Positions 3,038-43,700 of a stretch of 53,583 nucleotides of DNA are shown here, one piece after another. How positions within the stretch are numbered: the first letter of the stretch is position 1; each line of letters starts with the position of its first letter. The stretch comes from an uncultured bacterium (GTDB taxonomy: Bacteria; Vulcanimicrobiota; Vulcanimicrobiia; Vulcanimicrobiales; Vulcanimicrobiaceae). The notes under the pieces are model-generated. The model made no database searches and was not told the DNA's origin. It saw only the letters and a list, made by a program, of their open reading frames with translations. A program made the translations under genes and the position numbers. The DNA lies in contig CAIKPM010000041.1 in NCBI GenBank assembly GCA_903829325.1, positions 1-53,583 on the forward strand, in the 5' to 3' direction.

Positions 3038-5407
3038 CTATGTTCGTAGCACTGCTCCTAATTCGCTTTGGGCTGCGCTCAGAATGTGCGCAATGGCAGA
3101 ATCTGCTTGCAGATCGGTGAGGGTGGCATCCGGACTTTGCAGGACGACCCGAACGGTGAGGCTTTTACGCTCGGGCCCGAGTTGATTGCCGTGGTATTCA
3201 TCAAAGACCGAGACCGTTTGCACTAGTGGCTCAGCTTGCGCAACGATGTACTGGACTTGCGCCGCAGCAACCGTTTTGGGCAAGCTCAGCGCGAGGTCGC
3301 GCGTGATGCGGGGGAAGCGCGATGGTGTGCGATAGCGCTGCGGAGGGCGTTCTTGGAGTGAGGCCAGATCAAGCTGCGCGACATAGCAATGGGCGTCGAG
3401 CTCATACTCGGCAGCCAGCCGGGGATCAAGCGCACCAATCTGCGCGATAATGTGGCCTTCGTGAAGAATTGCTGCGGTTTTTCCAGGGTGTAACCCCGTC
3501 ACTTGGGTGGGCTCAATGTGGAGACGATCGGGAAAAAACGCTCGCAGTAGCGCTTCGATCCGACCTTTGAACGTGAGGAAATGCTGGTCATGCCATGGTC
3601 GGGAATTCGGCTGATTGGTTGTCGCATAGGCGCTGATCCACATCGCTGCGGTTTGCTCACTCTTGGGGTCGTTGTTCGGGAAAATATGGCTGAGTTCAAA
3701 GAGCGATAGCTCGCCCTCACGTAACTCGCTCTGGCGACGGCGCAGAGTCGCGAGCAAACCGGGCAGGAGAGAAAAGCGCAGATAATGTTGTTCTTCAGAA
3801 AGCGGATTGTTGATCGCGATCGTATTTGGCGCTGCTGTGGCTGTTGCCGCGGCAAAACGTTCGGCAATACGCCCCGATTCAAGCGAGAAGCTGACGACTT
3901 CGTGAAAACCGAGCGCAGCCGAGCGGGTCGCAAGTGCACGTTCGCGCAGGTAGGCGGCGCTGGAGATTGGGCTAGGGGGCAGCGCAAATTCACTCGCGAT
4001 GATTTGATCGTAGCCAATCGAGCGAGCAATTTCTTCGATAAGGTCGGCAGGCTGGCTGATGTCGCTGCGCCAGTCTGGCGCGGTGACGAGCCAGCCGTCG
4101 TGGTCGGCGACCAGAGTAAAGCCTAAGCGGCTCAACGCGCTTTCGAGCGCGCAATCGCTGATCGCGAAACCCAGCAAGCGATCCGCCGCTCCGCGCGGTA
4201 AATGCACGCTGTTTGGTTTTGGAATATGACCGATCACTGCGCGTGGATGGAGTTGTCCCCCGTGCTCGCTCAGCAGATACGCGGCGCGGGCGGCAGCAAG
4301 CTCAATCATTGCCGGGGGGATGCCTTTTTCGAAGCGGCTGGAGGCTTCGGTTCGCACGCCCAAGCGGTTGGCACCGCGGCGGATACGGGCTGCACGGAAG
4401 GCCGCACACTCGATGATGACTTCGGTGGTATCTGCCTGTACCTCGCTCGTCGCGCCCCCACGAATTCCGGCTAGTGCGAGTGGTCCGTTCTGGTCCGCGA
4501 CCACGAGCAATTCTGGAGAGAGTGTTTGTGCGAGTCCGTCGAGGGTGGTGAGCTGCTCGTTGGATTGTGCGTCGCGCACGATCAAGGTTGCGTTGTTGAT
4601 GGCGCGTGCATCGTAGAAATGCAAAGGCTGGCCGAATTCGAGCATGACGTAATTCGAGATATCGACCAGAGTGCTAATCGGGCGCTGACCGGCTAATGCG
4701 AGTCGAATCCGCATGCTGCTCGGTGCTGGGCCATTGGTGAGCCCAGTGACGCGTTGGGCCACGAAGGCAAGCACGTCGTCCGAATGCAGCTTGATCTGGA
4801 TTTCGTCGGCACCGGTCGGAGCAGGCGGGGTGATTGGCGGTAGTCGTAAGGGGCGCTGGTATGCCGCGGCAAGTTCGCGAGCGACCCCTACGATCGAGAG
4901 GACATCAGGGCGATTACTCGTGACTTCGATATCGAAAATTGGATCGAGCAACCCGAAGTGGGCAACCACGTCGGTACCTAAGGGCAGATCGCGGTCGAGC
5001 TGCATGATGCCGTCTTCGAACCACTCGCCTACCAGGCCCAACTCGCTGGCCGAGCAGAGCATGCCTTGTGAATCAACCCCACGCATTTTGCGCGGCTCGA
5101 TCGTCAGGTTGGGCAAGACCGCGCCGATGGTCGCCACGGGGATAACTTGTCCTACCGCCACGTTGGTCGCAGCGGTTGCAATCGTGAGGAGCAGTTCGTT
5201 ACCGACGTCGATGGTGCAGATTTGCAGACGATCCGCATTCGGATGAGGTTGGAGGGCGTCAATCCGCCCTACCAATACACCGGAAATGCGCGGTCGCGTT
5301 TCGGTTTCTGCAACGGGGAAGCCGAGGCTGGCGAGCTTTTCGGCGATTTCTTGCGGGGTCTCAGGTAGGTCGGTGTAGGCGCGCAGCCAGCTGAGCGGGG
5401 TCTTCAT
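3038..5407 (-). CDS. pheT: Phenylalanyl-tRNA synthetase beta subunit
   Basis: Beta chain of the heterotetrameric cytoplasmic PheRS, 789 residues, the normal length. An EMAP-type tRNA-binding domain is visible near residues 40-150 (VGRIDALQPHPNADRLQICT). The B3/B4 editing region follows at about 200-370 (GIRGG, SSRFEKGI), then the B5 domain with R-S-I-G-Y-D. The C-terminus carries the FDX-ACB anticodon-binding domain (SRFPRITRDLALSLP). The ATG start overlaps the pheS stop by 4 bases, so the two subunits are translationally coupled. The stop TAG sits within the presumed start region of cvpA. Confidence 0.97.
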   Translation of the reverse strand: MKTPLSWLRAYTDLPETPQEIAEKLASLGFPVAETETRPRISGVLVGRIDALQPHPNADRLQICTIDVGNELLLTIATAATNVAVGQVIPVATIGAVLPNLTIEPRKMRGVDSQGMLCSASELGLVGEWFEDGIMQLDRDLPLGTDVVAHFGLLDPIFDIEVTSNRPDVLSIVGVARELAAAYQRPLRLPPITPPAPTGADEIQIKLHSDDVLAFVAQRVTGLTNGPAPSSMRIRLALAGQRPISTLVDISNYVMLEFGQPLHFYDARAINNATLIVRDAQSNEQLTTLDGLAQTLSPELLVVADQNGPLALAGIRGGATSEVQADTTEVIIECAAFRAARIRRGANRLGVRTEASSRFEKGIPPAMIELAAARAAYLLSEHGGQLHPRAVIGHIPKPNSVHLPRGAADRLLGFAISDCALESALSRLGFTLVADHDGWLVTAPDWRSDISQPADLIEEIARSIGYDQIIASEFALPPSPISSAAYLRERALATRSAALGFHEVVSFSLESGRIAERFAAATATAAPNTIAINNPLSEEQHYLRFSLLPGLLATLRRRQSELREGELSLFELSHIFPNNDPKSEQTAAMWISAYATTNQPNSRPWHDQHFLTFKGRIEALLRAFFPDRLHIEPTQVTGLHPGKTAAILHEGHIIAQIGALDPRLAAEYELDAHCYVAQLDLASLQERPPQRYRTPSRFPRITRDLALSLPKTVAAAQVQYIVAQAEPLVQTVSVFDEYHGNQLGPERKSLTVRVVLQSPDATLTDLQADSAIAHILSAAQSELGAVLRT

Positions 5408-6465
5408 GCAAGTTGCTCCAGAAAATCGCGCTCGTTCTCGTAAAAACTACGGATATCGTCAATCCCATGACGGACCATCGCGATCCGCTCGACGCCGACT
5501 CCGAATGCCCAACCCGAATACTTCTCTGGTGAGCAGCCAACTTCGCGCAGCACGTTTGGATGGACCATCCCAGCCCCACCGATTTCGATCCAGCCGGTGC
5601 CGCTGCAGGTCGAGCAACCGTCGCCACCGCAGCCGGGGCAAGTAGTGTCAACTTCTGCGCTGGGTTCGGTGAAGGGAAAGAACGAGGGACGAAAGCGGAC
5701 CCGCTGCTCGGGCCCGAAGAGGGCGCGGCACATGCCGGTGAGGGCTGCTTTGAGGTGGCCTAGATGCACGCCGGGTGCGACGAGCAGCCCTTCGACTTGG
5801 TGAAACATGAACGAGTGCCGGGCATCGAGAGAATCACGTCGGTAAACCCGCCCGGGTACGACAAGTGCGATGGGTGTGCCGTGAGCTTCAATTGCGCGAA
5901 TTTGCATCGGCGACGTATGGGTGCGCAACACTAGCCCGCCATCGAGGTAAAACGAATCGAACCCCTCGCGTGCGGGGTGATCGGGTGGAATGTTGAGGGC
6001 ATCGAAATTGTAGTATTCGGTTTCGATTTCGGGGCCGGTCAACACGGCGAACCCTGAACGCTCAAAGTAGCCGGTAATTGCATCGGTGGTGCGGCGTAGC
6101 GGGTGGAGTGAACCCAGTGCTGGCGATGCCCCTGGGAAGGTCACATCGATACGCTGCTCGAGTTCGGCCATAAGAGCGGCTTGCTCAAAAGCGGCAAGCC
6201 GTTGAGTCAGAAGCTCTTCGAGCTTCGTGGCGCAATCATTAATCCGCTTGCCGGCGGCTGGCTTTTCGGCTGGGGCCAAGCTGCCAATCGCACGGCGCAC
6301 AAGCGTTAACTCACCGCTACGACCCAGATAGGCAACCCGGAGAGCCTCAAGGGCCTCAGTGGACGGGCTGGCGGCAAGGTCGCTAGCAAAGCGGGTTTCG
6401 AGCTGAGTGAGTTGTTGTTCGAGAGAGAGGGGCTGTGTATCGCTTGATGCAGAGATAGTGGTCAC
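5404..6465 (-). CDS. pheS: Phenylalanyl-tRNA synthetase alpha subunit
   Basis: Catalytic alpha chain of PheRS, about 353 residues when read from GTG 6465. After an N-terminal coiled coil (about residues 15-85), class II motif 2 region residues appear (RRDSLDARHSFMFHQVEG), then FRPSFFPFTEPS, a four-Cys C-P-G-C-G-G-D-G-C-S-T-C insertion common in PheS, and the motif 3 segment AFGVGVERIAM. The open frame continues upstream to ATG 6657, but that codon lies within the promoter at 6628-6657, so the extension is unlikely. GTG 6465 overlaps the TGA of a short upstream frame (GTGA). It couples to pheT by a 4-base overlap. Confidence 0.93.
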   Translation of the reverse strand: MTTISASSDTQPLSLEQQLTQLETRFASDLAASPSTEALEALRVAYLGRSGELTLVRRAIGSLAPAEKPAAGKRINDCATKLEELLTQRLAAFEQAALMAELEQRIDVTFPGASPALGSLHPLRRTTDAITGYFERSGFAVLTGPEIETEYYNFDALNIPPDHPAREGFDSFYLDGGLVLRTHTSPMQIRAIEAHGTPIALVVPGRVYRRDSLDARHSFMFHQVEGLLVAPGVHLGHLKAALTGMCRALFGPEQRVRFRPSFFPFTEPSAEVDTTCPGCGGDGCSTCSGTGWIEIGGAGMVHPNVLREVGCSPEKYSGWAFGVGVERIAMVRHGIDDIRSFYENERDFLEQLA

Positions 6466-6563
6466 ACTACCGTTGGAACCGGGTGGAGGCGTCGGTAAAG
6501 AATATACGCCGAAATCGAACCGGTGCTCTTGAACATCTTCCAAAAAACGTCTGAGGTCTGCAT
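6462..6563 (-). CDS. Candidate 33-codon leader peptide upstream of pheS
   Basis: A short frame in the pheS leader begins at ATG 6563, preceded by GGAGGAG at a somewhat long spacing of about 14 bases. It ends in a TGA that overlaps the GTG start of pheS. It encodes 33 residues with two Phe, one Trp and two Tyr, fewer Phe than the classical PheS attenuation peptide. I see no strong terminator hairpin after it. A coupling or upstream-ORF role is therefore more likely than classical attenuation, and it may be fortuitous. Confidence 0.35.
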   Translation of the reverse strand: MQTSDVFWKMFKSTGSISAYILYRRLHPVPTVV

Positions 6564-6627
6564 CTTGTGTGTATCTGCTCCTCCGGATAGTTGTTTCTGA
6601 AGCGCTAAAATCGCTCAAGCCTCGCCG

Positions 6628-6657
6628 AGTATAGCACGCGTTCCTGCAGCTAGCCAA
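6628..6657 (-). promoter_or_regulatory. Promoter for pheS-pheT
   Basis: On the minus strand a TTGGCT -35 box (6657-6652) and a TATACT -10 box (6633-6628) are 18 bases apart, with an extended TG two bases before the -10. The -35 overlaps the trmH stop codon. Transcription would begin near 6621, giving a leader of about 155 bases before GTG 6465. Confidence 0.6.
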
Positions 6658-7426
6658 GACTTGACAGACGATTTTCTCTCGCTAACACGTACAAAAGAAT
6701 GCTGCCTGCGACGCCAGCATTCAAGCTCTCCATTTCGCTCTGTTGAGGGATGCCGACGCACATCTGAGGCTGAAGCGGAGTGTGTGCAATCCCTTGTCGT
6801 TCATGCCCGATCATGATCACACTGCGTGGCGGGAAGGAAAATTGATCGAGCGAGACACCATCCATGCTCGCTGCGATCAAGGGGCGCCCGTCGCTAGCGG
6901 TTGCAAACTCTGCGGGGGTGATAGTTCTTGCATCTAGGCGGAAGAGTGCGCCCATCGCTGCGCGCACGATTTTCGGATGGTAGAGTTCCACACCGCCCTG
7001 GAGTAAGAGGACGCCACCTATACCGAACGCGCAAGCAGAGCGCAACAGAGTGCCGACGTTGCCAGGGTCATTGAGCCCGGCAAGTAGCAACACGTGGGGG
7101 TGGGAGAATACGCTCGCGAGTTGAGCCTCGCGCTGGATTGCAATCGCGACAATCCCGCTTGGCTGCTCAAGCGCGGACAGGCTTGCTAAGCTGGTTTCGC
7201 TGACGAGTGCCACGTGTTCGGTTGGCAATTCTGCCAAGATCGGATAGCGTCCCCAAGCGGCTTCGGTCGCAAAAACGGCTTCAAGCGGAAATTGCGCTGA
7301 CAATGCTTCAGCGAGTAGAGTCGGGCCCTCGAGCAAAAAACGCTGTTGGGTACTACGACCCTTTTTACTCAGTAATGCACGGGCGGCGCGCAAGCGCGGG
7401 TGATGGGCGCCGAGGGTGATGGGCAT
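6650..7426 (-). CDS. SpoU/TrmH family RNA 2'-O-methyltransferase
   Basis: SPOUT-class methyltransferase of about 258 residues that should methylate a ribose 2'-OH in tRNA or rRNA using S-adenosylmethionine. An N-terminal substrate-binding region (residues 20-90, with FLLEGPTLLAEAL) is followed by the three trefoil-knot motifs: N-D-P-G-N-V-G-T-L-L-R-S-A, I-M-I-G-H-E-R-Q-G-I, and I-P-Q-Q-S-E-M-E-S-L-N. ATG 7426 starts where homology starts; ATG 7462 adds 12 residues and is less likely. It sits just upstream of pheST, as in Bacillus (the ysgA-like gene). The exact target nucleotide cannot be read from sequence. Confidence 0.88.
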   Translation of the reverse strand: MPITLGAHHPRLRAARALLSKKGRSTQQRFLLEGPTLLAEALSAQFPLEAVFATEAAWGRYPILAELPTEHVALVSETSLASLSALEQPSGIVAIAIQREAQLASVFSHPHVLLLAGLNDPGNVGTLLRSACAFGIGGVLLLQGGVELYHPKIVRAAMGALFRLDARTITPAEFATASDGRPLIAASMDGVSLDQFSFPPRSVIMIGHERQGIAHTPLQPQMCVGIPQQSEMESLNAGVAGSILLYVLARENRLSSLG

Positions 7427-7478
7427 AAGCGGGGAGCTTCGCCCGGAGTGGATGCAGTCCATCGCGAAAGCAGCGAGG

Positions 7479-7829
7479 ATGCGGATAGAATTTATTGCGA
7501 CGGTCGTTATTGGACTAAGTGTGATTGTCGGTGGACGCGCGCTCTTAGCCGAGCTTGCACAACCTCAGCTGGCGGGAATCGCGAGCCTGGTGCTCTTCGC
7601 GCTGTCGGTCGCCCAAGGGCTGGTGTTAGTGCGCAGCCTGGGCCAAGCAGGCGAATTGGCCCGTCTTGTGGCTTCGCGCGATATTACTGGTTTTATTGCG
7701 GTACTTTTTGCGATCGTCGCAGTCTTGACGCGAGCGTCATGGTCGATCGGTGCCACTATTACTGCGGTCGAGTTCGTCCTGGTGCTGGAATGCATGCGTC
7801 TGTATACCCAGCCCCAGGACGTCGCCTAG
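7479..7829 (+). CDS. Small integral membrane protein, unknown function
   Basis: Protein of about 116 residues with four hydrophobic segments (roughly residues 4-22, 31-48, 68-84 and 88-106), so a compact multi-pass inner-membrane protein. I recognise no motif. It stands alone on the plus strand between trmH and rplT, which both run the other way, and it ends 3 bases before the rplT stop. ATG 7479 begins right at the first helix; ATG 7452 and ATG 7416 are alternatives, and the longest would overlap the divergent trmH start. None has a well-spaced Shine-Dalgarno. Confidence 0.55.
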   Translation: MRIEFIATVVIGLSVIVGGRALLAELAQPQLAGIASLVLFALSVAQGLVLVRSLGQAGELARLVASRDITGFIAVLFAIVAVLTRASWSIGATITAVEFVLVLECMRLYTQPQDVA

Positions 7830-42185: not shown

Positions 42186-43700
42186 ATGCGCGCTAACGAA
42201 TTCATGCCCCACTGCATGTGCCTGCTCTGGAAACCGGAATTGTTGCTGGCGCATGTACTGGCCGACGGGCTTATCGCGTTCGCGTATTTTTCCATTCCGA
42301 TATTTCTCATCTGGATCACTCATAAACGAGGAGACATTCCCTTTTCGTGGGTTTTTTGGCTGTTCGCAATCTTTATTTTAAGTTGCGGTACGACGCATAT
42401 TCTTGCTATATGGGTTATTTGGCACCCTGTGTACGTGCTTGAAGCGGTCATTAAATGGGTGACGGCGATCGCTTCGATTGGTACGGCGATTATGCTGATT
42501 CCCTTAACGCCGAAAATATTGCGCATTCGTACTCCCGAGCAGGCCGATGAACTCATCAACAAACTGCGGCGCGAGCACTCAATCGCTACGACCTACCAGA
42601 ATGCCTCGTTACCGAAGGTTCCGCAGGGTGCACCCGGTCTGGACATTCATGCAATCTATCGGCCTGCGGTACGAGATCTCGAAATTGGCGGAGATTGGTA
42701 CGATGCGTTTACCTTGCTCGATGGCCGCTTATTGGTATCGATCGGTGACGTCACGGGAAAAGGTCTCCAAGCATCGGTGATTATGTCGAAGGTGCGGCAA
42801 TCGATACGCATCGCGTCGCAAATCGTCATCGATCCAGTAGCAATTCTCGACGCAGCAGACCGGGCGCTCGTGGCAGAATATCCCGACGCCATTGTAACTG
42901 CTTTTATCGGTGTTTTTGATCGTACGGTCGAGCAATTTACCTATGCGAGCGCTGGACACCCCGGTCCAGTTCTACGCCACGCTGACGCGCGCACCGAGGC
43001 TCTGCACGGCTCGAGTTTGCCGCTAGGCTTGCGGCATCGTGACGAAACGGTAGCATCGCGGGTGATCAACCTCGAAGACGATTCGCTGTTTGTTTTCTAT
43101 ACTGACGGCGTGATCGAATATTCACACGATTTCGCTGCAGGCGAGGCACGTCTAGCGGAAGTCGTTGCGATGCACGGCACGGTCATCGCAAGTGATCCCG
43201 CTGCCTATATCCATGACCAGGTTATCGTTGGCGAATCTCGGGATGATATTGCCATTCTCACCGTCGGTGTCAAAGCATTAGCGAGAAACATCGATGCGCA
43301 GGAATGGGATTTTAACGTCCTTGACGAGTTCAAGGCCGCGAACGCCCGTCAAGAGCTTATCGCTTTTTTACGTTCGCGGGGTTTTGAGACGGAAGACCTT
43401 GCAACCGCTGAGCTTATTTATGCGGAGCTCATTGGTAACGTCCTCCGCCATGCTCCGGGGCCGGTGAAAGTCCGTATCGAATGGCACAGCGGACGTGCGG
43501 TGCTCAATATTTTTGACCAGGGACCCGGTTTTCAGCATATGCCTCGTTTACCGAACGATGTCTACGCCGAGTCCGGGCGGGGCCTTTACTTGATCTCGAC
43601 GTTAGCTGATTATTTCCATATCGCTCGTCGTCCGGGTAAGGGCAGTCATGCCCGGGTGGTCTTGGTTCCGGTCGTGCACCGACTCCTGAGTTTGCGCTAA
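42186..43700 (+). CDS. Ethylene-receptor-like sensor fused to SpoIIE phosphatase and HATPase
   Basis: 504 residues in three parts. Residues 20-112 match the ethylene-binding domain of plant ETR1 and its cyanobacterial relatives: three membrane helices with D27, Y34, I64, C67 and H71, which align with ETR1 Asp25, Tyr32, Ile62, Cys65 and His69 at a constant offset of two. C67 and H71 would bind Cu(I). Residues 150-370 form a PP2C/SpoIIE phosphatase (G-G-D-W-Y-D, G-D-V-T-G-K-G, Y-T-D-G-V-I-E, R-D-D-I-A-I-L). Residues 390-500 form a GHKL ATPase of the anti-sigma/RsbW type (E-L-I-G-N-V, D-Q-G-P-G-F, G-R-G-L-Y-L-I). It should act in an anti-sigma or partner-switching route in response to ethylene or another Cu-sensed ligand. 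Starts without a Shine-Dalgarno. Confidence 0.87.
   Translation: MRANEFMPHCMCLLWKPELLLAHVLADGLIAFAYFSIPIFLIWITHKRGDIPFSWVFWLFAIFILSCGTTHILAIWVIWHPVYVLEAVIKWVTAIASIGTAIMLIPLTPKILRIRTPEQADELINKLRREHSIATTYQNASLPKVPQGAPGLDIHAIYRPAVRDLEIGGDWYDAFTLLDGRLLVSIGDVTGKGLQASVIMSKVRQSIRIASQIVIDPVAILDAADRALVAEYPDAIVTAFIGVFDRTVEQFTYASAGHPGPVLRHADARTEALHGSSLPLGLRHRDETVASRVINLEDDSLFVFYTDGVIEYSHDFAAGEARLAEVVAMHGTVIASDPAAYIHDQVIVGESRDDIAILTVGVKALARNIDAQEWDFNVLDEFKAANARQELIAFLRSRGFETEDLATAELIYAELIGNVLRHAPGPVKVRIEWHSGRAVLNIFDQGPGFQHMPRLPNDVYAESGRGLYLISTLADYFHIARRPGKGSHARVVLVPVVHRLLSLR

Follow-up and report, generated by a model that had tools for sequence, protein, structure and literature searches.

An ethylene-receptor-type sensor domain fused to a SpoIIE phosphatase and an RsbW-type kinase in Vulcanimicrobiota, as a candidate input to sigma factor partner switching

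We here asked whether a sensor domain of the type found in plant ethylene receptors may be coupled, in an uncultured bacterium, to the partner switching of a sigma factor. The question was raised by a gene in a stretch of 53,583 nucleotides (contig CAIKPM010000041.1 of assembly GCA_903829325.1, family Vulcanimicrobiaceae; hereafter the window), for which a first-pass annotation had proposed an ethylene-receptor-like copper sensor fused to a SpoIIE phosphatase and a HATPase domain. Open reading frame calling gave a single frame at positions 42186–43700 of the forward strand, running from an ATG at 42186 to a TAA at 43700 and encoding 504 amino acids, with the equivalent ATG as start codon in the full-length orthologues of two other genomes, G117 and G060. 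Three Pfam domains were found in this protein in the order ETR1_N, SpoIIE (PP2C) and HATPase_c_2. As the HisKA domain was absent by Pfam from all of the 504 residues and the output consists of SpoIIE together with HATPase_c_2, the protein is a carrier of the ethylene-receptor sensor domain and not a classical receptor kinase. An assembly chimera or a frameshift as the origin of this arrangement was ruled out by its presence in four genomes of other genera, in one of which the copy is broken. The genes neighboring it in the window encode a cysteine synthase, a DUF892-like protein and UbiX, none of which gave a functional link.

The identity of the N-terminal part was clear from its match to ETR1_N (PF25487; aa 19–114, positions 42240–42527, + strand; E = 1.2e-35 and 122 bits, against a cut-off of 27), with no competing Pfam or NCBIfam match that would place it in another three-helix family, and the same E-value rules out a chance pattern of residues. 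The five ETR1 residues that the first-pass annotation had listed at a constant offset were all recovered, each shifted by +2, as D27, Y34, I64, C67 and H71, while an alignment with AzoEtr1 and ETR1 and a residue table covering 28 domains showed that I37 and P38 complete the ethylene-binding set, seven of seven residues thus being present; K90, furthermore, matches the helix-3 lysine of ETR1. The proposed Cu(I) pair likewise held, with C67 (codon tgc, 42384–42386) and H71 (codon cat, 42396–42398), spanning positions 42384–42398 of the + strand, aligning with Cys65 and His69 of ETR1. I37 and P38 correspond to I35 and P36 of ETR1; the AzoEtr1 row of the alignment, retrieved from a database (L215, 525 aa, in agreement with the published length), gave the same columns as that of ETR1. 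The published ethylene-binding set consists of seven residues, and ETR1 no longer binds ethylene when the equivalent Asp or Cys is mutated (PMC11819568). Over the sensor domain, the window protein shares 41% identity with AzoEtr1, of which residues 1–130 bind 14C-ethylene (PMC11819568). Since SynEtr1 is reported to be responsive to light as well as to ethylene (PMC11819568), the natural signal of the window sensor may nevertheless differ.

An AlphaFold2 model of aa 1–147 (mean pLDDT 76) placed three membrane helices at aa 17–47, 55–79 and 83–112, in agreement with the hydropathy peaks, although the input alignments were shallow and the membrane part can be trusted at most moderately; the model of the full protein, made at low alignment depth, was poor in that part. 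Both models contained a short helix at aa 117–140 (42534–42605, + strand), which connects the phosphatase with the third membrane helix. Foldseek searches with the sensor model returned nothing significant, and we found no solved structure of an ETR1_N-type sensor domain.

Among 149 Vulcanimicrobiota genomes, ETR1_N scored above its cut-off in 14, and the same full-length fusion was found in G117 and G060 (genera g10 and g36), which are 60 and 59% identical to the window protein and have all seven binding residues each. Within the protein, conservation was highest in the sensor, with 67–68% identity as compared with 56–63% in the phosphatase and kinase domains, and with 58–66% in the region of the signaling helix (aa 113–150). 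Comparing the sensor domains of G117 and G060, we obtained a dN of about 0.10 and a dS of about 0.85, and the sensor is thus under strong purifying selection with its site intact. A third genome of another genus, G074, carries a fusion that is only 38% identical and has five of the seven residues, with the Cys changed to Gly and P38 to Ala, which shows that not every fusion of this kind requires copper-dependent ethylene binding. Within the same phylum the sensor was also found on histidine kinases, PAS/GAF proteins and GGDEF cyclases. These included a GGDEF protein of G095 (L109, 973–1827) in which the Cys of the copper pair is Gly, and a histidine kinase of G119 (L112, 325–1932) in which the His is Tyr, giving natural variants with which a loss or change of ligand may be compared. 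In G118, a fifth copy of the fusion (L214, contig 1, 1808000–1820000) was disrupted both by a frameshift and by the insertion of a transposase gene, the family of which recurs several times in that stretch.

Such losses bear on what the N-terminal domain does. It could be a membrane anchor or dimerization device only, its sequence being kept by descent and without any ligand sensing, as the lost Cys of G074 and G095, the lost His of G119 and the broken copy might suggest; but with the sensor being the best-conserved part of the protein, under strong purifying selection and with an intact site, we consider this highly improbable. A different possibility is that architecture and partner switching are as proposed but that the signal is not ethylene and lies instead in Cu(I) as such, in CO or some other small molecule, or in the membrane or redox state. 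The Cu(I) site that these residues define leaves a ligand position free, no ligand is known from the phylum, and P38, Y34 or C67 can be changed in relatives; a sister SpoIIE protein on contig 54 of the same genome, moreover, has an MHYT-like membrane domain, of a type proposed to sense metals and gases, with a Pfam score just below cut-off. Against this stands the retention of all seven ethylene-binding residues in the window protein, G117 and G060, just as in AzoEtr1, for which binding is proven, and in SynEtr1, for which it is reported, and we regard a signal other than ethylene as rather unlikely. Our preferred reading of the domain is still that it senses ethylene or some small ligand like it.

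The output half was proposed to be a PP2C phosphatase followed by an anti-sigma-type kinase, and this was borne out by the profile matches as well as by the catalytic motifs. The SpoIIE/PP2C Ser/Thr phosphatase domain (aa 151–363, 42636–43274, + strand; PF07228 match at aa 179–362, E = 2.3e-34, above the curated cut-off) has all four of its metal-binding aspartate motifs intact (GGDWYD168, GDVTGKG187, TDG306 and RDD352). It is followed by an RsbW/SpoIIAB-type HATPase_c_2 domain (aa 384–484, 43335–43637, + strand; PF13581, E = 3.2e-14, likewise above the curated cut-off), having an intact N-box (E414/N418), G1 box (D444-x-G446) and G2 box (GRGL464), and profile matches to RsbW (6m36) and SpoIIAB (1til). 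The solved protein closest to the output half was the RsbU-RsbW part of Rv1364c (3ke6), found both by sequence (E = 2.2e-39) and by Foldseek (E = 4.4e-20). Since PP2C-HATPase halves having PAS or GAF inputs are common in many proteins of the same bacterial family, the output half as such is ordinary, and the unusual feature is solely its pairing with this input.

If the output acts in partner switching, a STAS-type anti-sigma antagonist should be found in the genome. Searching the contigs of the window's own genome (1.89 Mb, 96% complete) with Pfam profiles, we found one ETR1_N protein, four SpoIIE proteins and exactly one STAS protein. The latter is an RsbV-like antagonist encoded on contig 26 in an operon together with an RsbW-like kinase and a sigma factor of the SigB/SigF/SigG family (TIGR02980, 280 bits against a cut-off of 234), and it has a phosphorylatable Ser58 in a canonical DSTG motif. 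Neighbors of the same kinds were seen in relatives, with an RsbW-like open reading frame just upstream of the fusion gene in G117 and a STAS gene in G074 of which the ATG overlaps the stop codon of the fusion by four bases, in further support of the partner-switching claim. The contig-26 STAS protein is therefore the likely target of the window protein, as judged from sequence, and it could be acted upon also by the other three SpoIIE proteins, being a GAF-SpoIIE-HATPase protein on contig 62, an MHYT-like-SpoIIE protein on contig 54 and a protein with SpoIIE alone on contig 45. It could also be that the sensor is rightly identified but that the output feeds an unrecognized STAS-like or non-STAS substrate instead of the SigB/SigF operon. 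The window gene is unlinked to the operon on contig 26, a divergent STAS protein could be missed by a Pfam profile in a 96% complete assembly, and the G074 fusion has a private STAS; the sole STAS protein found, on the other hand, carries the canonical phosphorylatable DSTG serine, and we find such another substrate improbable.

The contig-54 protein (L097, 4878–6443, – strand) represents a second membrane sensor on a SpoIIE output, with its MHYT-like N-terminus at 20.9 bits against a Pfam cut-off of 21 and with degenerate motifs.

Taking these results together with the contig-26 operon as the preferred target, we consider it probable, at roughly 0.6, that the window protein senses ethylene, or a small ligand resembling it, in a Cu(I)-dependent manner and controls SpoIIE activity and, with it, a SigB-type sigma factor. 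In the mechanism that we infer, from copper and ligand to the direction of the response and the identity of the substrate, the three N-terminal helices would form the ethylene-receptor-type site, with Cys67 and His71 holding a Cu(I) at which ethylene, or another small unsaturated compound like it, may bind. Coupling of sensors to PP2C dimers is proposed to run through coiled-coil linkers, which control RsbU and are predicted to control further PPM phosphatases; the same kind of linker, with the same sensors, is common to histidine kinases and GGDEF proteins (PMC12143880). The helix that AlphaFold2 predicted after membrane helix 3 and ahead of the phosphatase fits this coiled-coil coupling scheme, and occupation of the Cu(I) site by a ligand would hence alter the dimeric helix that leads from membrane helix 3 into the linker, and in turn the SpoIIE/PP2C domain. 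The phosphatase would dephosphorylate the STAS antagonist at Ser58, the candidate being the sole RsbV-like protein found in the genome, with the fused RsbW-like domain probably rephosphorylating the same substrate or setting the balance, whereupon dephosphorylated RsbV would bind RsbW and the SigB/SigF-type sigma factor would be freed.

We next consider how such fusions may have arisen. A tree of the SpoIIE-HATPase halves, built with a quick method and having SH-aLRT support only, required at least two changes across strongly supported branches, separating the window protein, G117 and G060 from G074, and the fusion therefore probably arose twice, independently in G074. A more far-reaching formulation would be that ethylene itself, through a plant-type Cu(I) site, exerts direct control over a Ser/Thr phosphatase and, through it, over a sigma factor of the general stress response, in a pathway free of histidine kinases that was reached at least twice in Vulcanimicrobiota by swapping the sensor onto SpoIIE outputs; this we hold tentatively, at somewhat less than even odds.

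Comparisons with characterized systems placed both halves in known families. AzoEtr1 of Azospirillum brasilense shares the three-helix ethylene-binding domain, the same seven residues and the helix-3 lysine, but its output consists of PAS and a histidine kinase with a response regulator encoded adjacent to it (PMC11819568), whereas that of the window protein is PP2C and an RsbW-type kinase. Cyanobacterial SynEtr1 (as described in PMC11819568) and plant ETR1 have the same binding residues and Cu(I) pair; their outputs, however, are of kinase type, without phosphatase or anti-sigma domains. The Mycobacterium tuberculosis RsbU-RsbW-RsbV fusion Rv1364c (3ke6) similarly has PP2C followed by an RsbW-type kinase in one chain, but its input is a PAS domain and a STAS domain is fused at its C-terminus, whereas the window protein has a membrane-bound ethylene-type input and no fused STAS. 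Bacillus subtilis RsbU and RsbP are sensor-driven PP2C phosphatases that act through a helical linker on RsbV to free sigma B (PMC12143880), differing in their input domains and in having no fused kinase domain. Closest in output half and linker, at about 33–44% identity, were SpoIIE-HATPase proteins of the same bacterial family (L015–L018 and the protein on the genome's own contig 62), which have PAS or GAF inputs and not an ethylene-receptor domain.

The first-pass annotation had regarded the whole layout as undescribed. This stood for the pairing of input with output, since no paper combining 'ethylene receptor' with 'SpoIIE' was found in the open literature searched, and not for the PP2C-HATPase half, known from Rv1364c and the PAS/GAF proteins; the pairing thus appears undescribed, as does its connection with partner switching. 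Bacterial ethylene receptors in the open papers searched are histidine kinases, and a partner-switching version would, if true, let ethylene, a plant-hormone gas, set a bacterial general stress response, and this in a phylum with reported occurrences on alpine plants, in lichens and in soils. As this phylum has the one sensor on each of the three outputs, such a version would also make a concrete case for the proposal that sensors swap freely among histidine kinases, GGDEF enzymes and PP2C phosphatases by way of a shared helical linker (PMC12143880).

Beyond these genomes, no SpoIIE fusion was recognized among the 40 plasmid records listed or in one draw of 396 genomes, the taxonomic make-up of which is uncertain, and a scan of genome contigs returned SpoIIE proteins with the sensor half matched in none. 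Plasmid matches (Novosphingobium, H1) that covered the ethylene-binding domain and more were considered as SpoIIE fusions and rejected, the ES2-1 protein being an ATP-binding protein beside a response regulator and hence read as a histidine kinase. A second link between ethylene-receptor-type sensors and partner-switching proteins was seen in a phage-like contig (L221, IMGVR_UViG_3300035445_000156), with a terminase large subunit at 5627–7507 (PHROG, 3.6e-35) and, at 3842–4897, a fusion of an ethylene-receptor-type domain (ETR1_N, 4.8e-15), a long coiled coil and a STAS domain (7.3e-13). Two further virus-labelled IMG/VR sequences, of 58 and 350 kb, encode stand-alone ethylene-receptor-type domains without an output domain: that of L218 (3959–4450) has five of the seven binding residues and lies near an amidase/endolysin gene, and that of L217 (3968–4384) has all seven.
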